Source of the DNA: Haladaptatus sp. DJG-WS-42
Lineage (GTDB): Archaea; Halobacteriota; Halobacteria; Halobacteriales; Halococcaceae
DNA: 64,000 bases
NCBI RefSeq assembly: GCF_037198285.1
Contig: NZ_CP147243.1
Coordinates: 1,302,001 to 1,366,000, forward strand
Direction: 5' to 3'
The position numbers and the translations under genes are program-made. Shown piece by piece: positions 5,381-46,465 of this stretch; the stretch's first letter is position 1, and every line of letters begins with the position of its first letter. Under the pieces are notes generated by a model, which worked only from the letters and a program-made list of their open reading frames with translations, had not been told where the DNA came from and did no database searches.

Positions 5381-6004
5381 ATGCCCGAACACGGAGACGA
5401 CCAACAGGAGTACGCAGACCGGCTGGCCCAGGATGCAGACGTGCTGAAAAACGGCTGGACGGCGACCATCGACGAGATGAAAGCCATGGCCGCAGAGTAC
5501 GAAGAGCAGGGCTGGAATGCGTATTACGTCGCCGCCGGACACACCGCGACCGAACCACCAGACGCCGGGCCAAAAGGTCGCTTTGGTCTCGTCCACGTCA
5601 TCCCCGGCAACTACGCAGACGACTTCGTCGCGGCGTTCGAAGCAGGCGAGTTCCCCACCTACGACGTGTTCCGCAACGAGATGGACGGCCACGTGTTTTT
5701 CGTCACCAAACTCCTTGACGAGCCCTCGAAAAATGCCATCTTCATCGCCGGGCAGTACGAACTCTGGAACGCGGGCAACCTCGTCTCCCACGCGATGGAC
5801 GAAGGCGAGATATACACCCACGTCCAGAAGCTCGACGGGACAGTGCTCGGCTCGTTCAAACACGACGACCCAGCCAAATTCTTCCCGCACGCAGCAGACT
5901 TCAAACAGCACTACGGCGCGATGGGCGACCCGCAATCGGACGTGAGCGGGAAAGCGTACAGTGCAGAAGAAGTCGAAGCGATGCAAGAGCAGTCTGAAGA
6001 ATAA
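5381..6004 (+). CDS. Conserved haloarchaeal protein of unknown function
   Basis: 207-aa soluble, very acidic protein. It has no signal peptide or membrane segment. The central part (about residues 45-180) alternates beta-strand-like and helical segments (FGLVHVIPGN, GHVFFVTKLL, NAIFIAGQYELW) and looks like a single alpha/beta domain. The C-terminus is Glu-rich. A TATA-like element (CTTTTACC) lies about 30 nt before the start codon, so it has its own promoter rather than reading from the transporter operon. I do not recognise the family and propose no function. Confidence 0.8.
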   Translation: MPEHGDDQQEYADRLAQDADVLKNGWTATIDEMKAMAAEYEEQGWNAYYVAAGHTATEPPDAGPKGRFGLVHVIPGNYADDFVAAFEAGEFPTYDVFRNEMDGHVFFVTKLLDEPSKNAIFIAGQYELWNAGNLVSHAMDEGEIYTHVQKLDGTVLGSFKHDDPAKFFPHAADFKQHYGAMGDPQSDVSGKAYSAEEVEAMQEQSEE

Positions 6005-6006
6005 GC

Positions 6007-6030
6007 GTTCCAGCGGAAACGAGGGGGTTT
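6007..6030 (+). other. ORB-like element outside the origin, overlapping a T-rich 3' end
   Basis: Two nt after the stop of the preceding gene lies GTTCCAGCGGAAACGAGGGG followed by GTTT. This matches the archaeal origin recognition box pattern (a TTCCA..GGAAAC core then a G-run) about as well as the boxes in the origin at 39-41 kb. It is followed by T5 (about nt 6028-6032), so it may also double as the transcript 3' end. Whether Orc1/Cdc6 binds here is inference. Confidence 0.5.
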
Positions 6031-27907: not shown

Positions 27908-27929
27908 ACCCCTTTGTTTCCACTGGAAC
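27908..27929 (-). other. ORB-like element (left member of an inverted pair)
   Basis: On the minus strand GTTCCAGTGGAAACAAAGGG followed by GT, essentially the consensus archaeal origin recognition box and nearly identical to the strongest boxes at the origin. It lies in the 173-nt intergenic region between the MaoC gene and the PH-domain gene. Confidence 0.6.
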
Positions 27930-27987
27930 AGAACGCGTTTCAGTCGATGAACCCTCGGAAAATGGCCAAAACACCCAAGTACGAGAA

Positions 27988-28010
27988 TCTGCAGTCGAAA
28001 CAGAGGGGTT
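27988..28010 (+). other. ORB-like element (right member of an inverted pair)
   Basis: TCTGCAGTCGAAACAGAGGG followed by GTT. Compared with the origin box at 40267-40288 it differs at about four positions. Opposite in orientation to the box 60 nt to its left, with both G-runs pointing outward. Confidence 0.5.
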
Positions 28011-35113: not shown

Positions 35114-35500
35114 ATGGACGTGCGGGACGCTGTTGAAGATGATGCGGGCATACTGGCGGAAATGACCGGGTCACCGAGCGATGTCATGCGAAACCTGATT
35201 CACGACCGGAGCGTGCGCGTCGCGGAGGCAGAAGGCGACATCCTCGGCTTCGTGAGCTTCGACGCAGAACAACGAACCGTGTACGTCACCCAACTCTCGG
35301 GTGAGACGACCGTCGCTAAACGACTGCTCGACGAACCGCTCAGGTTCGCCACGAAAGAGCAGATGAGCGTCGAACTCCTCGTGCCGGAAGACGAAGACCC
35401 GATTCTCGATGCCGCAGACAGCGTCGGCTTCACTCGCGTCGGCAGAGGGCCACGATTCGACTCCATTCCGACCGTCAAATTCCGCAAAGACCCTACTTGA
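35114..35500 (+). CDS. GNAT-like small protein
   Basis: 128 aa from ATG 35114 (MDVRDAVEDDAGILAEM). The start resembles GNAT acetyltransferases, and the strand order VAEAEGDILGFVSFDAEQRTVYV fits, but the acetyl-CoA loop (Q/RxxGxG/A) is not clear, so activity is uncertain. A TATA-like TTTAAT (35083-35088) is about 28 nt upstream, which favours the leaderless start at 35114 over ATG 35105. It overlaps the convergent DP1 gene by 8 nt. Confidence 0.7.
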   Translation: MDVRDAVEDDAGILAEMTGSPSDVMRNLIHDRSVRVAEAEGDILGFVSFDAEQRTVYVTQLSGETTVAKRLLDEPLRFATKEQMSVELLVPEDEDPILDAADSVGFTRVGRGPRFDSIPTVKFRKDPT

Positions 35501-36998
35501 ACGAGCGAATCGTCATTTCGAGTGTGTCTAAGTCAACGATTGGCGCAAAGCCGGAATCGGGGTTGATGTTCACGCTTTTCTGGAAATCAGTCTGTGCCTG
35601 CCAACAGCCACTGTTGATGGCGAGCACGTTGTGGTACATCCCGTAGCCGAGTTTGTGGACGTGGCCAGTGTGGAAAATGTCGGGCACCTCGTCGATGACC
35701 AGATAGTCCTTCTCTTCGGGTGCAACCCGCGTGTGCCCGCCGTACTGGGGCGCGACGTGGCGCTTTTTGAGCAACTGATACATCGCCTTGTGTGGCTCCT
35801 CGTAGCTCGCTTTGTCCGCAGGCAACTCGGCGATGACCTCGTCGAGCGAGACGCCGTGGTACATCAGTACAGACACGCCTTCGAGCGTGACGACGGAGGG
35901 ATTCGACGCGATTTGGGCGTCGTGGGCGGTCATAATATCTCGGAGTTCGTCAGAAAAGCCCGGCTGGGGTTCTGCGAGGCGCACCGCATCGTGGTTGCCC
36001 GGAATCATCACGATTTCTAAGTCGCCGGGCACCTCCTTCAGGTACTCTGAGAACTCCTCGTACTGGTCGTAAATGTCGATGATGGTGAGTTCCTCGTCCT
36101 GATTCGGGTAGATGCCAACGCCCTCCACCATATCCCCCGCGATACACAGGTATTCGACGTGTTCTGCCTCCTCGGTGTGGAGCCAGTGGGCAAAATCGCT
36201 CCACGCGTCGGCCATGAATTCTTGGCTGCCGACGTGCACGTCGCTGATGAGCGCCGCCTGTACGTGGCGGTCTGCGGTCGAGGGGTTGTGGGTACGCGGG
36301 ATGTCCGGGAAGTAGAGCGATTCGACGAACAGGATGCCCGCGTCGTCAGAAAGCGTCCCATCTACGGCGATAACCTCATCGAGGAGGATTTCGTCCACGA
36401 GGTCTGCGAGCGGCCGGTCTTTCATCACGAGACACGGGAACACGCCGTTCGTGTCCTCTAACTCGATTATCCAGTGACCGTTGGCCGTCGAACGCACGTC
36501 GCTGACCATTCCGATGATGCCCGCCTCGCTGTTGCCGGGCATGGAGTTGAGCGCCCGCGTCGTCCGGTGGTTCACCCGCGAGCGGAGTTTTGCGGACAGG
36601 CGCTCGTACCGGTCTCGGAACACGGCGACGAAATCCTCGTAGCGGCCCGTTCCGGTGCTCTCGCCGGTCATATCGTTCGCAATCTGGAGCGAGCGAAGCG
36701 AGTGGTCAACCGTCCGCTCGAACTCCGCGGGCGCGGTTTCGACTGGAGTTGAATCCGGGATATTATCGGTCGCTGTCTGCATATCTGCAGTGGAAGGAGG
36801 GGGGTCTTGTTGGTCGAGAACGCTCCGGACGTGGGCGGCGGTGAGTTTGAGCGCATCCGCGGGCAGGGTGTCGAGCGCGAGAGAGAGGGTGCGCGCCGGG
36901 TCGGAGGAACTCGCGATGAGGGTGACTGCTTCGCGTTCAGCGTTGTATCCTCGACTGACGAGTTCGCTGACAACGCGAGCGTCACTCTCTAAAGGCAC
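35493..36998 (-). CDS. polB: DNA polymerase D small subunit DP1 (3'-5' exonuclease)
   Basis: 501-aa small subunit of archaeal family D polymerase. An N-terminal helical region (1-60) and linker precede an OB-fold (about 155-235) and a calcineurin-like phosphodiesterase with DVHVGS (253-258), GDMVEG (288-293), GNHD (334-337), YHGVS and GHVHKLG. The intact metal ligands indicate an active Mre11-like proofreading nuclease. GTG 36998 is taken as start because the upstream frame is non-homologous. The large subunit DP2 is not in this window. Confidence 0.94.
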   Translation of the reverse strand: MPLESDARVVSELVSRGYNAEREAVTLIASSSDPARTLSLALDTLPADALKLTAAHVRSVLDQQDPPPSTADMQTATDNIPDSTPVETAPAEFERTVDHSLRSLQIANDMTGESTGTGRYEDFVAVFRDRYERLSAKLRSRVNHRTTRALNSMPGNSEAGIIGMVSDVRSTANGHWIIELEDTNGVFPCLVMKDRPLADLVDEILLDEVIAVDGTLSDDAGILFVESLYFPDIPRTHNPSTADRHVQAALISDVHVGSQEFMADAWSDFAHWLHTEEAEHVEYLCIAGDMVEGVGIYPNQDEELTIIDIYDQYEEFSEYLKEVPGDLEIVMIPGNHDAVRLAEPQPGFSDELRDIMTAHDAQIASNPSVVTLEGVSVLMYHGVSLDEVIAELPADKASYEEPHKAMYQLLKKRHVAPQYGGHTRVAPEEKDYLVIDEVPDIFHTGHVHKLGYGMYHNVLAINSGCWQAQTDFQKSVNINPDSGFAPIVDLDTLEMTIRSFK

Positions 36999-37814: not shown

Positions 37815-39320
37815 TCAGTTGTCGAAGCGCGCTTGGACGAACGGCTGGACGTCACCAATCTCGCTGAGGCGTGAATCTGAAAGGAGGACGGCTTCTGTCT
37901 CATCGATTGGCACGGAGAGGCTGATCTCTTTCGTGCGCCCGTAGCGACCCTTGCTCACGACGACTGCGTTTACGATGCCGAGCATGTCGAGTTCGCTGAT
38001 AAGGTCGGTGACCCGACGCTGCGTGAGGATGTCGGCGTCGATTTCGCCACACAGGCGCTTGTAGATGTTGTACACCTCGCCCGTGTTGATGTTGTGGACA
38101 CCGTTTTTCTCCAGCATGATGGTCGAAAAGAGCACGAGTTTCGACTGCGTTGGAAGCGTCCTGACGACCTCGACCACCCGGTCGAGTTCGATTTTGTCCT
38201 GTGCTTTGCGTACGTGTTTTTCTTCGACGCAGTCTATCTGGTCGCGTTCTGCGAGTTCGCCCGCCGTCCGAAGCAAGTCGAGCGCGCGCCGAGCGTCACC
38301 GTGTTCTTGGGCGGCGAACGCCGCACACAGCGGGATCACGTCGTCCGTGAGCGAATCAGGTTTGAACGACACGTCGGCGCGGTGTTGGAGGATGTCGCGC
38401 AGTTGGTTCGCGTCGTACGGCGGGAAGACGATTTCCTCTTCGCCAAGCGATGATTTGACGCGCGGATCGAGGAAGTCGGTGAATTTGAGGTCGTTCGAGA
38501 TGCCGATGATCGAGATGCGGGAGTTGTCGAGTTCCGAGTTCATCCGCGAGAGGTTGTAGAGGGTGTCGTCACCAGATTTTTCGACGAGTTTGTCGATTTC
38601 GTCGAGCATGATGACGACGACGCGCTCGTTGTAATCGACGGCTTCGAAAAAGGTCGTGTAGACGCGGTCGGTTGGCCACCCGGTCATCGGGACAGGTTCG
38701 AACGACGCAAGGTCGTCTTCGAGCACGGACAGGCGCTCGTCAAGCGCGTCGAGTGAGGCGAACTGGGTCTCTTCGAGTGCAGTTGAGTCATCGGCCGCGC
38801 GCTCGCGAAGCGAGCCAAGGCGGTCGAGTTTGTCCTCGATGACCTGCTCGTTTTTCTCGATAAACTTGTTCGCGAGCTGTGCGAGGACGCGATACTGGGT
38901 GTCGGTGACTTCGCAGTTGATGTACTCGACCTCACACGGCACTTCGTACTTCTGTGAGGTGGTTTCGAGTTCTTTGGAGACGAACTTCGCACTCGCCGTC
39001 TTGCCGGTCCCGGTCTTGCCGTAGATGAGGATGTTAGAAGGCGTCTCGCCGCGGAGCGCAGCGACAAGAATCGTCGCCATGTTGTTGATCTGCTCTACGC
39101 GATGGGGGAGTTTGTGTGGCGTATACGAGGGGCGGAGCACTTCCTTGTTCTCGAAGATGGGCTCACCGCTCAGGAGGTCGTCAAACAGCCCTTGCGAAGC
39201 TTCCTCTGGGTCTTCGAGACCGTGGTCGTCTAAGACGACGTCGTCTAAGTCCACGTCGAACGCTCGACTGGTGTCTGTGTCGTCAGTACCGCCATCCGTG
39301 TGTGTGTCGTCAGGTGCCAT
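37815..39320 (-). CDS. orc1: Orc1/Cdc6 origin-binding initiator
   Basis: 501-aa AAA+ replication initiator. Walker A is GKTGTGKT (101-108), Walker B is VVIMLDEID (Asp240-Glu241), and the C-terminal winged helix starts near residue 400 (LCGEIDADILTQRRVTDLIS). About 50 residues of charged helix (155-205) are inserted in the AAA+ domain. The gene is adjacent to an origin-like region with ORB elements, and one ORB lies 10 nt before its start codon. It should bind these boxes and load MCM. Confidence 0.96.
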   Translation of the reverse strand: MAPDDTHTDGGTDDTDTSRAFDVDLDDVVLDDHGLEDPEEASQGLFDDLLSGEPIFENKEVLRPSYTPHKLPHRVEQINNMATILVAALRGETPSNILIYGKTGTGKTASAKFVSKELETTSQKYEVPCEVEYINCEVTDTQYRVLAQLANKFIEKNEQVIEDKLDRLGSLRERAADDSTALEETQFASLDALDERLSVLEDDLASFEPVPMTGWPTDRVYTTFFEAVDYNERVVVIMLDEIDKLVEKSGDDTLYNLSRMNSELDNSRISIIGISNDLKFTDFLDPRVKSSLGEEEIVFPPYDANQLRDILQHRADVSFKPDSLTDDVIPLCAAFAAQEHGDARRALDLLRTAGELAERDQIDCVEEKHVRKAQDKIELDRVVEVVRTLPTQSKLVLFSTIMLEKNGVHNINTGEVYNIYKRLCGEIDADILTQRRVTDLISELDMLGIVNAVVVSKGRYGRTKEISLSVPIDETEAVLLSDSRLSEIGDVQPFVQARFDN

Positions 39321-39329
39321 CGATTAAAT

Positions 39330-39350
39330 CCCCTATCTTTCGGGTGGAAC
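39330..39350 (-). other. ORB A, at the orc1 promoter
   Basis: Minus strand GTTCCACCCGAAAGATAGGG plus G. It starts 10 nt upstream of the orc1 start codon and so overlaps the likely initiation site of orc1 transcription, which would let the initiator control its own gene. Confidence 0.7.
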
Positions 39351-39850
39351 TGATACGACGGCCCGGGAGAGAAGCCCGCAACCGCCCTAGAGACGCCTTT
39401 TCGGCGAGTAGATTCGTGTTCGCACGTCCACTTGATGCAGACGAACCAGAGGTAGAATGTCTATTAAAGGTTGTGTTTTGTGGAGGGGTTTGCAACGCGG
39501 AACCAACGCAAATCGAGAGACTGCGACCCACTCTGGAGGAATTTCGCAGTGCGGTGGTCGCCGCACCAGAAAGGGTGGTGTTTCGACTCGAACGAACTGC
39601 GTATGGGTTGTGAGCTGTCTACCGCTGGCTCACGACACGAGAGGATGAAATAGACGGATAGATGCAAACAGAATCGACGGTTGAAAATCTTTGACGACAC
39701 CCTTGCTCGAGAGTTGGAGTTGAAACAAAGGTGGTGGCCGGAATAGGGTGATTTCCACCGGCCGATGATGGATCGAGACTCGCGTTACCCAGTCGGTTGC
39801 GAAGTGGCATCGCGACCGCGCACCCGAAAAATGTCTCCGAGAACGCCATG

Positions 39851-39873
39851 GTTCGACCGGAAACGGAGGGGGT
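39851..39873 (+). other. ORB B
   Basis: GTTCGACCGGAAACGGAGGG followed by GGT. One change from the core TTCCACCGGAAAC and a full G-run. Confidence 0.75.
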
Positions 39874-40073
39874 GTGACTGAAATATCTCTAGTGATACTA
39901 GGTTGCACTAGAACAAAAGGGGTTGAGTACCGCAGTGCTAGAAGAGAATCTAGGATAAACCACCATGTGTGGGTTGTTGGCACGCAAGGTTCGGGCGACG
40001 GCTAGCGGTTCTTCTGTGAGGAGTTCTGCGAAGCTGGTTCTTCGAGTGTATGATGTGTGTACCGGGAGAGGGT

Positions 40074-40102
40074 GCCCCCCACCCCTTTGTTTCCGGTGGA
40101 AC
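40074..40102 (-). other. ORB C, left arm of the origin core inverted repeat
   Basis: Minus strand GTTCCACCGGAAACAAAGGG followed by GTGGGGGGC. Nucleotides 40074-40094 are the exact reverse complement of 40275-40295 in ORB D (21 of 21). The extended G-run is a haloarchaeal feature of origin boxes. Confidence 0.9.
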
Positions 40103-40266
40103 GAGAAATTGGAGGGGAGGGGGGCGCAAAGGAGTCTCTGTAAAGAGGTATCTTTATACCATAGATAGTTCAACCACAACCGTAGTAGAGAACGAAACGC
40201 TGTTTGTTGTGTTGTTGCTAGTGGAATTAACTTGAGCTCGCCAATCCACCCTCCCTCTCTCACGGC
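40103..40266. other. Putative duplex-unwinding region between ORB C and ORB D
   Basis: About 165 bp. The middle (40140-40235) is AT-rich with TAAAGAGGTATCTTTATACC, containing the inverted repeat GGTAT/ATACC. It is flanked by a G-run (about 40111-40126) and a matching C-rich run (about 40246-40262). This is the position where haloarchaeal origins melt. Confidence 0.6.
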
Positions 40267-40295
40267 TCTCCACTGGAAACAAAGGGGTGGGGGGC
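40267..40295 (+). other. ORB D, right arm of the origin core inverted repeat
   Basis: TCTCCACTGGAAACAAAGGG followed by GTGGGGGGC. A strong ORB oriented opposite to ORB C, G-runs pointing outward. Confidence 0.9.
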
Positions 40296-40429
40296 TAGAA
40301 CCTCGTCGGACTCTCGTTCTCCGTTCGTCTAATGTCCAGAAATCACACTGGAGACACCCTCTATTCCAAGAACCCAATCTCACTATTCTGCACCCCTCCA
40401 TTAACAATCGCTAGAAATCCTAATTCTAA

Positions 40430-40451
40430 CCCCGTCTAGTTCAGGTGGAAC
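40430..40451 (-). other. ORB E (degenerate)
   Basis: Minus strand GTTCCACCTGAACTAGACGG plus GG. The left half is perfect and the right half diverged. Confidence 0.5.
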
Positions 40452-40597
40452 GGGAGATTCTCCGAACGCACGATTGCGAGGGTCGCTCAACCCAACCACC
40501 AGCTTGCACAAATACTGGCGGTTCCTCTCGCCCTGCTCATCCACGACAAACAGTTCAAAAACCAATCAAAACAGACTGTGGACACATCCTTCGCAGA

Positions 40598-40620
40598 ACC
40601 CCCTTGTTTCGGGTGGAGAC
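40598..40620 (-). other. ORB F
   Basis: Minus strand GTCTCCACCCGAAACAAGGG plus GGT, a good match on both halves. Confidence 0.75.
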
Positions 40621-40760
40621 CCGACCGAGAGGCAATTTCTCCCGGTAGCGTGGCCAATGCGTCGATCTCGTTCGCGACACCGAAACATCCTTGTGACCAC
40701 CGTCCGTCGATTGTCTATAAATCCAGACACATGTCTGACGCACGCTTAAGTGAGTTCAGA

Positions 40761-40782
40761 GTGCTTCTATGTTCAGAAGCAC
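40761..40782. promoter_or_regulatory. Perfect 8-bp inverted repeat upstream of the oapA TATA box
   Basis: GTGCTTCT and AGAAGCAC are exact complements separated by ATGTTC. The element ends about 10 nt before the TATA-like GATATATT (40793-40800), which itself is about 26 nt before the oapA ATG. It could be an operator for the oap operon or a boundary hairpin. Confidence 0.45.
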
Positions 40783-40821
40783 CCTTGACTACGATATATT
40801 CCGAGGGAGCGGGAGAATAGG

Positions 40822-41463
40822 ATGGGTATATTCGCTGAATTACGAGATAGCATCTCACGAGTTACAGATAAGTTGTTCTCCGGCTCTGAGCCGAAACGAA
40901 TTGGCATCTATGGGCCGCCAAACGCGGGCAAGACGACGCTCGCAAATCGCATCGCTCGCGATTGGACTGGCGACGCCATCGGGCCGGAGAGTCACATTCC
41001 ACACGAAACGCGCCGCGCACGCAGGAAAGAAAACGTCGAGATAAAGCGCAACGGGAAATCCGTGACCATCGATATCGTGGACACGCCGGGTGTCACGACG
41101 AAGGTCGATTACAAGGAGTTCTTAGAGCACGACATGGAGAAAGACGACGCGGTTCGTCGCTCCCGCGAGGCCACCGAAGGCGTCGCAGAGGCCATGCACT
41201 GGCTCCGCGAGGACGTCGATGGCGTCATCTACGTTCTCGACAGTTCGACGGACCCGTTCACGCAGGTGAACACGATGCTGATCGGTATCATCGAGAGTCA
41301 GAAGCTCCCCGTGCTCATCCTCGCGAACAAGACGGACTTAGACGAATCGAACGTCCAGCGCATTCGCAATGCGTTCCCCCAACACGAGACGATTCCATTA
41401 TCGGCACTCGAAGGGGCGAACATGGACGAAGTGTACGACAAGATTTCGGCCTACTTCGGGTGA
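40822..41463 (+). CDS. oapA: Origin-associated GTPase OapA (Era-like)
   Basis: 213-aa GTP-binding protein. G1 is GPPNAGKT (31-38), G3 is DTPG (87-90), G4 is NKTD (169-172) and G5 is PLSALEG. The switch region around HETRRARRKE is unusually basic. Genes of this family sit beside replication origins in many archaea, which gave the name. Biochemical role unknown; a link to initiation or ribosome assembly (as for Era) has been proposed. A TATA box 26 nt upstream predicts a leaderless transcript covering oapABC. Confidence 0.92.
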   Translation: MGIFAELRDSISRVTDKLFSGSEPKRIGIYGPPNAGKTTLANRIARDWTGDAIGPESHIPHETRRARRKENVEIKRNGKSVTIDIVDTPGVTTKVDYKEFLEHDMEKDDAVRRSREATEGVAEAMHWLREDVDGVIYVLDSSTDPFTQVNTMLIGIIESQKLPVLILANKTDLDESNVQRIRNAFPQHETIPLSALEGANMDEVYDKISAYFG

Positions 41464-41469
41464 TATCGT

Positions 41470-41850
41470 ATGGCAGAAGCAACTAACAAAGACGGCGTGC
41501 AAATCGACCTGTTCAGCGGCGAGCGCATGGACAGGCTCACGAGCATGGAGAAAATTCGGACCATCTTAGATGGCGTTCATGCGGGAAACATTGTGATTCT
41601 CGAAGAGGGACTCTCGCCCGCAGAGGAGTCGAAACTCATTGAGGTGACGATGACTGAGATCAGTCCCGATGAGTTCAACGGCATCGAAATCGAGACGTAT
41701 CCGAAACAGGACGCCTCCGACGGCAGCCTGTTAGACCGGCTCATGGGGCGGCGTTCGACGGCAAAGCTCACGGTCATCGGCCCAGCGAACCGCATCGAAA
41801 CGCTGCACAAAGACGAGAGTCTCATCAGCGCCCTCGTCACTCGGCAATAA
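41470..41850 (+). CDS. oapB: Origin-associated protein OapB (DUF2073)
   Basis: 126-aa small protein of the DUF2073 family (GVQIDLFSGERMDRLTSMEK; NIVILEEGLSPAEESKLIEV). OapB-type proteins from methanogens and Sulfolobales have been reported to bind a small RNA, but the haloarchaeal function is not established. It follows oapA by 6 nt and shares its last base with the oapC start. Confidence 0.9.
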   Translation: MAEATNKDGVQIDLFSGERMDRLTSMEKIRTILDGVHAGNIVILEEGLSPAEESKLIEVTMTEISPDEFNGIEIETYPKQDASDGSLLDRLMGRRSTAKLTVIGPANRIETLHKDESLISALVTRQ

Positions 41851-42464
41851 TGCCACACCAGTGTACGGCCTGTGGCCACGAGTTCAGTGACGGCTCGAAA
41901 GAGATGCTCTCTGGGTGTCCAGACTGTGGCGGCAACAAGTTCCAGTTCTACCCAGCAGGCGCTGCGCCCGACCCGGAAGAGAAACCACCGGAACGCGAAT
42001 CCTCGGTGACCGAATCGGTCGGCAAGGCCACCACGAAAGTCCGCGACTGGGTGCGTGGAGACGAGCGACCCGCTGGCCCCGCCACGGCTTCGAGTGCAGA
42101 CGAAGATGACAACATCATCGAAGCACCTGCTGAGTCAAATCCCGACCGCGAAGACCGCGCGCAGGCAAGCGCTCGCGGCGAGATGGTGACACCCGACGAA
42201 CTTCCGAAGAAACCAGAGCAACCGCCCGCAGAGGGCCGCGTCGTTGGCAGTCCCAAAGAAGAACAGCCGTCGATGGAACAGCTCCGCGAGGAGCTAAACG
42301 ACCAGTTCGAGAGCATCAAGATTCTCGAACCCGGGCAGTACGAACTCAACTTGATGGAACTCTACGACCGCGACGAGTACATCATTGCCCTCCAAGAAAA
42401 CGGTCGGTACATCATCGAAGTGCCAGAGACCTGGATTGGCGGGCGCGACGAAGACGAGACGTAA
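41850..42464 (+). CDS. oapC: Origin-associated zinc-ribbon protein OapC
   Basis: 204 aa. An N-terminal zinc ribbon with cysteines 5, 8, 23 and 26 (QCTACGHEFSDGSKE ... GCPDCGG) is followed by a long acidic, Pro-rich, disordered middle (about 40-135). The C-terminus is conserved (LNDQFESIKILEPGQYELNL). Its start overlaps the oapB stop by one base. It completes the oapABC set next to the origin. Confidence 0.9.
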   Translation: MPHQCTACGHEFSDGSKEMLSGCPDCGGNKFQFYPAGAAPDPEEKPPERESSVTESVGKATTKVRDWVRGDERPAGPATASSADEDDNIIEAPAESNPDREDRAQASARGEMVTPDELPKKPEQPPAEGRVVGSPKEEQPSMEQLREELNDQFESIKILEPGQYELNLMELYDRDEYIIALQENGRYIIEVPETWIGGRDEDET

Positions 42465-45326: not shown

Positions 45327-45355
45327 ACCAATAAATCCGACAGTTCACCCGGATG

Positions 45356-45377
45356 AACCCCTTCATTTCGACTGCAA
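45356..45377 (-). other. ORB-like element upstream of the AI-2E gene
   Basis: Minus strand TTGCAGTCGAAATGAAGGGG plus TT, about 16 of 20 core positions as in CCAGTGGAAACAAAGGGGTT. It abuts a small inverted repeat GTTCA/TGAAC (45343-45358). Confidence 0.42.
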
Positions 45378-45460
45378 ATCTGCCACGACAGTTCGCGTCT
45401 ATCCGACGGAAACAGCCCAATTGTGCCAAGTACTTTATCACTTGCCGACTGACTGATGCT

Positions 45461-46465
45461 GTGTCAAACAACGGCCAACGCCAGTACGTTCTCGCCGGGT
45501 TAGTTGCGGTCATCGCGTTGCTTGCGGCGTTCTTGTTGGCCGACGTTGTCGCGACCGTCTTTTTCGCTATCACGGTCGCGTACGTCTTGTTTCCCTTCCG
45601 CGAATATCTCGTGACCCACCACCTCAAGCCACGCTATGCGAGCGCTCTCGCGACGGTTGTGGCCTTCTTGAGCCTTGCTGGACTGCTCGCGCCAATTGGT
45701 ATCGTCATCTATCTCCGTCGGCTGCAACTCGCCGAGTTCATCCAGAATCTCCCGCCTGAAATCGTGCTTCGGTACAGTGGGTTCTTCTACGTCATTCGCA
45801 CCGAAGACGCGATTCTCTACGCGAACAATACGCTGACTCAAATCGCTATTTCCGGCGTGCAAGCTGCGCCGGTACTCGCGCTCAAAGCCGCGCTGTTTAC
45901 GTTCCTCGTGTTCGCCATCCTCCTCGAGCCTCGCGGCGTCGCTGCCGCCATTTTCCGCCCGATTCCGCGCCCGTACCACGACATCGCCATCGCCCTCCAC
46001 GAGCGCATCCGCGACACGCTGTTTGCGATTTACGTCCTGCAAGCAGCGACCGCGCTCGGCACGTTCGTCCTCGCGCTTGCGGTGTTTTTCATACTCGGCT
46101 ATGAGTCGTTCTTCGCGCTCGCCGTCATCGCAGGTATCTTCCAGTTCATTCCCATTCTCGGACCGAGCGTTCTGGTGGTCGCCTTGGCTGGCTATCAAGT
46201 GAGTATCGGTGATGTGAACGCGGCGGCTGCCGTTCTCATCCTCGGCCTCATCGTCATCGCGTTCGTCCCCGACGCGCTCATCCGCCCGCGACTCGCAGAA
46301 CAGACCGCAGACCTCCCGGGAAGTCTCTACTTCATTGGGTTCGTTGGCGGTATCCTCAGCGTGGGTGTGATGGGCTTTATCGCTGGCCCGCTCATCATCG
46401 CGCTGTTCGTCGAGGCCATTGACCTGCTCTCAGACCGCCAGATGCGACAGGGCTCGCTGTTTTAG
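45461..46465 (+). CDS. AI-2E (PerM/TqsA) family transporter
   Basis: 334-aa membrane protein with about eight helices. Family segments are FAITVAYVLFPFREYLV near the N-terminus, LEPRGVAAAIFRPIPRPYHD in the cytosolic linker, FILGYESFFALAVIAGIFQFIP, and a C-terminal GILSVGVMGFIAGPLI. Members export signalling molecules or exchange ions. GTG 45461 is preferred because a TTTATC TATA lies about 24 nt upstream; the open frame extends to an ATG at 45353. Confidence 0.87.
   Translation: MSNNGQRQYVLAGLVAVIALLAAFLLADVVATVFFAITVAYVLFPFREYLVTHHLKPRYASALATVVAFLSLAGLLAPIGIVIYLRRLQLAEFIQNLPPEIVLRYSGFFYVIRTEDAILYANNTLTQIAISGVQAAPVLALKAALFTFLVFAILLEPRGVAAAIFRPIPRPYHDIAIALHERIRDTLFAIYVLQAATALGTFVLALAVFFILGYESFFALAVIAGIFQFIPILGPSVLVVALAGYQVSIGDVNAAAAVLILGLIVIAFVPDALIRPRLAEQTADLPGSLYFIGFVGGILSVGVMGFIAGPLIIALFVEAIDLLSDRQMRQGSLF

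Follow-up and report, generated by a model that had tools for sequence, protein, structure and literature searches.

Putative oriC1 of Haladaptatus sp. DJG-WS-42 and an origin-centred set of Orc1 boxes that may buffer the initiator

The closest described systems are the oriC1 origins of other haloarchaea. In Haloarcula hispanica (PMC3936714), the minimal oriC1 is an AT-rich region flanked by two inverted ORBs. Autonomous replication depends on both ORBs and on both of their extended G-strings, and a G-rich inverted repeat on the inner side, half-repeats of which occur in some species, acts as an enhancer. oriC1 is the origin conserved in all haloarchaea analyzed in PMC3528665. The ORB-rich region oriC2D restrains oriC2 in H. 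hispanica (PMC3936714), and DnaA boxes accumulate near oriC in Escherichia coli and titrate DnaA (PMC12371093).

The window, the whole stretch of 64,000 nucleotides that we analyzed, corresponds to bases 1302001-1366000 of the 2.78-Mb single-contig genome, which contains three Orc/Cdc6-type genes. The gap at 39321-40821, between orc1 and oapABC, had been read in the initial annotation as a replication origin. The gap and its flanking genes contain the following features.

37815-39320, minus strand: orc1/cdc6 initiator gene (NF001625 equivalog, 652.6 bits against a cut-off of 501)
39330-39350, plus strand: ORB just upstream of the orc1 start codon, without the extended G-string (21.3 bits)
39851-39871, minus strand: additional ORB without the extended G-string (23.9 bits)
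40074-40102, plus strand: left main ORB with the extended G-string, origin class (box at 40082(+), 32.3 bits; GTGCCCCCCA precedes the box)
40103-40266, no strand: core between the main ORBs, presumed from its AT content to be the duplex-unwinding element
40111-40124, plus strand: inner G-rich stretch GGAGGGGAGGGGGG, at the position of the H. hispanica oriC1 enhancer repeat (PMC3936714)
40246-40259, minus strand: inner G-rich stretch, imperfect inverted partner of 40111-40124 (matched by eye), reading CCACCCTCCCTCTC on the plus strand
40267-40295, minus strand: right main ORB with the extended G-string, origin class (30.0 bits; TAGCCCCCCA precedes the box on its own strand)
40431-40451, plus strand: weak ORB-like site (5 of 21 positions mismatched against the 40082 box; 76% identity in repeat family D1)
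40599-40619, plus strand: additional ORB on the oapABC side, without the extended G-string (28.1 bits)
40822-41463, plus strand: oapA, small Era-like GTPase (MMR_HSR1 and small_GTP matches; adjoins oapB and oapC)
41470-41850, plus strand: oapB (DUF2073; PF09846 OapB, 139.5 bits)
41850-42464, plus strand: oapC (zinc ribbon; PF09845 OapC, 102.9 bits)

The inverted repeat with outward G-runs was recovered at 40074-40100 and 40269-40295 (27 nt, 96% complementary), and the perfect 21-nt inverted stretch claimed for the main pair was located at 40074-40094 and 40275-40295. Both main ORBs carry the extended halophile G-string, with CCCCCC ahead of each box, and the inner G-rich repeat is inverted only imperfectly (40111-40124 against 40246-40259, by eye). 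ORBs were scored with a weight matrix trained on 100 sites from oriC1 regions of relatives; the training set consists of origin sites, and the related genomes are not independent. Across the whole window, nine sites reached at least 20 bits, compared with 0 in 60 dinucleotide shuffles, whose top score was 13.3 bits. The gap had been credited with at least six ORBs, of which five are clear (each above 20 bits), but the sixth, at 40431(+), is only weak and was absent among the matrix sites of at least 11 bits. Similarly, the core described as AT-rich and 165 bp long measures 164 bp and is AT-enriched, but only moderately so (52% AT against 39% for the window); its most AT-rich 60 nt start at 40149 and reach 63% AT. 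The box near the orc1 start recurs in one orientation upstream of orc1 across many genera (loci L007-L043) and could have a role in autoregulation.

Profile matches agreed with the flanking genes that had been named, namely Orc1/Cdc6 on one side and OapB, OapC and an Era-like GTPase in the OapA position on the other. An orc1 orthologue was present in all 106 of the 106 Halobacteria genomes searched. OapA drives extracellular-vesicle formation in Haloferax volcanii (PMC10927574), and we regard oapABC as a positional marker rather than as evidence for a replication function. The statement that genes head away from the site held only within approximately 12 kb (9 of 11 genes on the left, 10 of 13 on the right); over the full window, the left-side genes mostly face it (23 of 34). 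The cumulative GC skew ran against the prediction of a minimum at the site, as a maximum was found in the window instead. Over 464 kb, the skew showed a broad maximum at 1340-1424 kb, with its top at 1416 kb, 75 kb from oriC1, and no minimum at oriC1.

The reading of the gap as an origin is nevertheless supported by an adjacent orc1/cdc6A gene, inverted ORBs with extended G-strings, an AT-enriched core, inner G-rich stretches and oapABC. The region has all the sequence features by which a haloarchaeal oriC1 is recognised in the literature, its inner repeat being imperfect, and relatives have a matching layout at the corresponding place; on these grounds we called the region oriC1. Judged from its sequence, 39321-40821 is the canonical haloarchaeal oriC1 of the chromosome, an already-known type of origin. 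That this copy fires is an inference, in which we have very high confidence.

Separately, we noted a second candidate origin approximately 1.2 Mb from oriC1 (L150:5731-7748, approximately G000:C1:2540730-2542750), where five to six direct CACACCGCGTTTCCGGTGAAA-like boxes and three inverted ones lie beside an orc gene (lid domain at 2542153). No box family was found beside the remaining third Orc gene.

ORBs are not confined to oriC1. The sites outside it, together with the gene for the small subunit of DNA polymerase D (DP1), are placed in the window as follows.

6007-6027, minus strand: solo ORB at a distance of 34 kb from oriC1, immediately following the stop codon of gene 5381-6004 (26.8 bits)
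27909-27929, plus strand: left arm of an intergenic satellite inverted ORB pair, 12 kb from oriC1 (31.2 bits)
27988-28008, minus strand: right arm of this pair, with 79 bp between the starts of the two arms (20.3 bits)
35493-36995, minus strand: DP1 gene of this genome (NF003116, 933.6 bits; probable GTG start at 36995)
36729-36749, minus strand: decayed right DP1 arm, ACTCCAGTCGAAACCGCGCCC, exactly 55 bp downstream in gene sense (-14.9 bits; GGGG replaced)
36784-36804, minus strand: decayed left DP1 arm, CCCCCCTCCTTCCACTGCAGA in gene sense (-5.6 bits, yet the best plus-type site of the DP1 gene)
45358-45378, plus strand: weaker solo ORB at the start of gene 45353-46465 (22.3 bits)

The intergenic pair is flanked by a MaoC-like gene and the gene that follows. 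Both other species of the genus (G001 and G002) have it in synteny, with its 79-bp spacing kept, and its arms remain in G002 even though the intergenic region there has largely diverged. The pair lacks the extended G-string, with TAACACACTA and CGTTCTCGAA preceding its boxes.

In other haloarchaea, an inverted ORB pair lies downstream of orc1, within the coding sequence of DP1, usually with a spacing of 55 bp from start to start and otherwise of 52, 67, 70 or 73 bp. A whole-genome search for exact matches to the pair pattern found it in 155 of 392 Halobacteria genomes and 51 of 85 genera, a genome count that takes in the intergenic pair of this genus, and the reversed control gave 0. All 30 of the pattern matches that were fetched fall inside DP1. 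Wherever a DP1 gene has a clear pair, the arms share one reading frame, and the DP1 spacings are frame-compatible. A fixed helical phase, considered for the satellite pair, was dropped, as spacings of 52, 55, 67, 70, 73 and 79 bp share none. A one-arm test, which avoids selecting genes by the pair itself, was based on 33 DP1 genes fetched via orc1, 26 of them with a right arm; the left arm was found at the expected offset in 20 of these 26 genes, compared with 0 of 8887 in-frame control windows.

The DP1 arms are written in rare codons. Among 57 DP1 genes, chosen by score, the arms use GTT for Val in 56 of 56 cases (3.9 expected), GGA for Gly in 53 of 53 (3.5 expected) and CCA for Pro in 54 of 55 (3.5 expected), and one codon has a third-base T in 57 of 57 (4.6 expected) though the encoded amino acid varies. 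Both arms survived in 2 of 22,800 synonymous recoding trials. In the alignment, the arms encode two small islands, DPSVSTG and PVETKG, in an otherwise poorly alignable variable linker. Therefore, given the rare codons, the loss upon recoding and the islands in a variable linker, the constraint in DP1 acts on the DNA, and we observe selection on the DNA sequence itself at the DP1 pair.

The DP1 gene of this genome, whose start was chosen from an alignment of 12 DP1 proteins, retains a degraded version of the pair, with the left arm at the homologous position and in the homologous frame and with both islands broken (DPPPSTAD and PVETAP). No working DP1 pair was found in the other two species of the genus, and the pair is present in other genera of the same family. 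On this comparison of sequences, the DP1 pair has decayed in this genus. The pair at 27909-28008 may be the relocated site or an independent pair that existed already, and we could not decide between the two. Elsewhere, pairs survive in relocated DP1 genes at 10-17 kb from orc1, and one genome (G073) keeps a strong pair in DP1 (G073:C1:238011-238086) although 194 kb separate this gene from orc1; G073 yielded no main pair within about 400 kb. One arm is kept where DP1 lies at 15-60 kb, and most of these genomes belong to a clade with one arm anyway. Considered as a natural experiment, the relocated genes did not settle the importance of origin proximity.

Single boxes form a further set. We defined a solo box as an exact box that lies outside DP1 and over 5 kb away from the main pair, and the intergenic pair of this genome was counted as one cluster. 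Among 54 solo-box clusters in 37 genomes, 51 lie within 200 kb of oriC1, where 6.9 would be expected under a uniform distribution, and 43 lie within 100 kb; the median distance is 32 kb. Congeneric genomes are not independent, so the formal p value of approximately 1e-42 is overstated, but the pattern is also seen within individual genomes. Sites of at least 15 bits span -146 to +188 kb from oriC1 in the present genome, and none was found in sixteen 20-kb samples taken elsewhere in it. The orientation of solo boxes relative to the origin showed no clear bias in a hand count (approximately 29 away, 21 towards).

Some solo boxes are common to congeners and many are not shared between genera. The box at 6007-6027 is unchanged in G001, where the sequence beyond it has diverged. 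In 14 of 30 genomes, an ORB follows the Cgi121 stop codon, at 5-33 nt in 12 of them (L305, L306, L307, L315, L319, L321, L322, L324, L326, L327, L333 and L334) and at 94 nt in two. This box has the plus orientation in one family and the minus orientation in another, which rules out simple inheritance and suggests turnover at favoured places. A candidate conserved site inside the Hef gene was rejected, being weak or absent in most genomes.

Several isolated observations were made along with these searches. Rare ORB matches lie more than 400 kb from oriC1 (G020:C1:1987993, G066:C1:1651562, G072:C1:465147 and G126:C1:2787123). At L303:1523-1543 (G095:C1:1793522), a solo ORB stands 23 nt past the stop codon of a gene resembling the large subunit of polymerase D (DP2), which appears to contain an intein (both by eye). 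In one complete genome (G039), a distance of 160 kb separates orc1 from the main ORB pair (G039:C1:1726289 and 1885604-1885959).

The boxes fall into two classes. An extended G-string, scored as a C-run of at least 4 before the box, precedes 95% of 86 main ORBs. The figure falls to 6% for the 88 DP1 arms and to 3% for the 32 solo boxes; of the remaining boxes, 12% of the 42 upstream of orc1 and 19% of the 27 downstream ones have it. Because mutation of the extended G-string abolishes oriC1 activity in H. hispanica (PMC3936714), the satellites are expected to bind Orc1 without firing. They should do so, although this is an inference without binding data. We are highly confident that the locus is an origin with two classes of box, a judgement that does not cover the buffering step discussed below.

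Overall, we propose a putative mechanism for this arrangement. Orc1 from the adjacent gene would bind the two inverted main ORBs, with its winged helix on the TTTC..TGGAA part and its AAA+ domain on the G-string, and would load MCM onto the intervening core. Boxes that are able to fire would be marked by the extended G-string. Boxes without it, that is, those at the orc1 start, in the intergenic flanks, in the inverted pair 12 kb away and in the solos to approximately 190 kb, may bind Orc1 without firing, and the box at the orc1 start may bring about autorepression. Together with the DP1 pair of other haloarchaea, the satellites would act as a buffer close to the origin. Being copied shortly after initiation, these boxes would lower free Orc1 and limit re-initiation.

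The satellite sites themselves are well supported, and it is their function that is in doubt. Intact initiator boxes outside the origin are present according to both matrix and pattern searches; for solo boxes, DNA-level selection was examined only in part, by setting the kept box against its diverged flank. Without binding data, the inference that the satellites bind Orc1 and buffer it stays tentative, and we put its chances somewhat below even. We give slightly less than an even chance to the joint reading, in which an origin-centred set of non-firing Orc1 boxes, made up of an ancient DP1 pair with a fixed frame and near-fixed spacing and of solo boxes, buffers free Orc1 after initiation. 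The same hesitation applies to its further part, that the satellite set turns over in place yet persists, with the DP1 pair decayed here and an intergenic pair 12 kb from the origin. Two points weigh against buffering. Two to 10 boxes are maybe few against the copy number of Orc1, and G073 keeps its DP1 pair 194 kb from orc1, so the pair does not strictly need to be near the origin.

The DP1 pair travels with DP1 when DP1 relocates, and this would fit satellites that serve as operators, with Orc1 regulating replication and repair genes near the origin by promoter occlusion or an intragenic road-block. We consider this unlikely but not negligible. Boxes occur inside DP1 and at the orc1 start, and in single genomes they adjoin genes that we take to encode UvrB, DP2, Hel308 and an XPD-like helicase, recognised from sequence without family searches. 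However, many solo boxes lie just past stop codons and not at promoters (after Cgi121 in 14 of 30 genomes, and at 6007 in the window), and the pair in this genus is upstream of a MaoC-like gene and not in DP1. Operators would also leave unexplained why boxes cluster around oriC1 even where the neighbouring genes differ between genomes. Additionally, Orc1-2 of Saccharolobus is a DNA-damage regulator (PMC9738581), which lends the operator reading a precedent.

The clustering, the placement both within and between genes and the occurrence of both orientations would also suit a role in organising or segregating the origin region similar to that of parS or SegB sites, the latter of which cluster near segAB and oriC1 in Sulfolobales and are mostly intragenic (PMC12284271). 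However, the boxes match the ORB of the initiator itself and not the site of a separate partition protein. We know of no partition role for Orc1 and consider this explanation improbable. Hardly better than remote is the chance that inversions scattered pieces of older origins around oriC1 and that the solo boxes are their decaying remains. Rearrangements do occur, as in the 160-kb separation of orc1 and the main pair in G039, and clustering near the origin would follow from them. However, the solo boxes are intact and lack the extended G-string that such relics should carry, some are kept between species despite a diverged flank, and the DP1 pair retains its rare codons in 57 genes.

An alternative of another kind concerns the main site, which might be dormant or lost, with the chromosome starting elsewhere, for example at the second orc gene (G000:C1:2542153) with its own repeated boxes. 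A distinct box family, CACACCGCGTTTCCGGTGAAA, stands beside that gene in direct and inverted copies, the skew signal at oriC1 is weak, and dormant haloarchaeal origins are known (PMC4595724). However, every defining oriC1 element is intact here and oriC1 is reported to be conserved across haloarchaea, and we find dormancy very unlikely. Finally, the intergenic satellite pair (27909-28008), like the DP1 pair, resembles the main pair in its inverted ORBs with outward CCCC, but as a second, auxiliary origin it is barely credible, since the extended G-string that is essential in H. hispanica is missing, merely 34-58 bp separate the boxes and no initiator gene adjoins the pair in this genus.

Buffering of Orc1 by non-firing satellites therefore remains the reading that we carry forward, with the reservations given above. 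In the literature searched, which left out most subscription journals and supplements, we found no description of ORBs in the DP1 coding sequence, of an intergenic pair 12 kb from oriC1 alongside a decayed DP1 pair or of origin-centred solo ORBs. The DP1 pair, the genus-specific pair with decayed DP1 arms and the solo clustering are thus apparently undescribed, although absence from a search is no proof. Published origin predictions covered only intergenic regions next to orc genes and would miss the satellite boxes for this reason; searches restricted in this way overlook initiator sites.

Haloarchaea are polyploid and often have several origins, and to our knowledge, how initiation is limited at each of these origins is poorly understood. 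Conserved non-firing Orc1 boxes, one set of which can be recoded without changing the protein, make archaeal initiator buffering directly testable. If true, such buffering would parallel bacterial DnaA titration with an unrelated origin architecture.

Compared with known systems, the main locus is closest to haloarchaeal oriC1-cdc6A of H. hispanica and H. volcanii (PMC3936714, PMC3528665), with which it shares an adjacent orc1/cdc6A, inverted ORBs with extended G-strings, an AT-enriched core and inner G-rich stretches; unlike in H. hispanica, the inner G-rich repeat is imperfect in the window. The SegB sites of Sulfolobales (PMC12284271) are likewise clustered near oriC1 and many are intragenic, but their binder is a partition protein with its own motif and not an initiator. 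In H. hispanica, the ORB-rich oriC2D downstream of cdc6E (PMC3936714) similarly places initiator boxes outside the origin, and titration was proposed for it. However, oriC2D is an intergenic cluster of 11 boxes for another initiator, Cdc6E, whereas the satellites described here match the oriC1 ORB and comprise one fixed-spacing pair in DP1 and solo boxes. In E. coli, the DnaA boxes near oriC, datA and DARS (PMC12371093, PMC4585315) also lie outside the origin and are denser near it, with titration proposed or shown. In contrast, the haloarchaeal set involves a different initiator in another domain of life, has far fewer boxes and includes a conserved pair in a polymerase gene.
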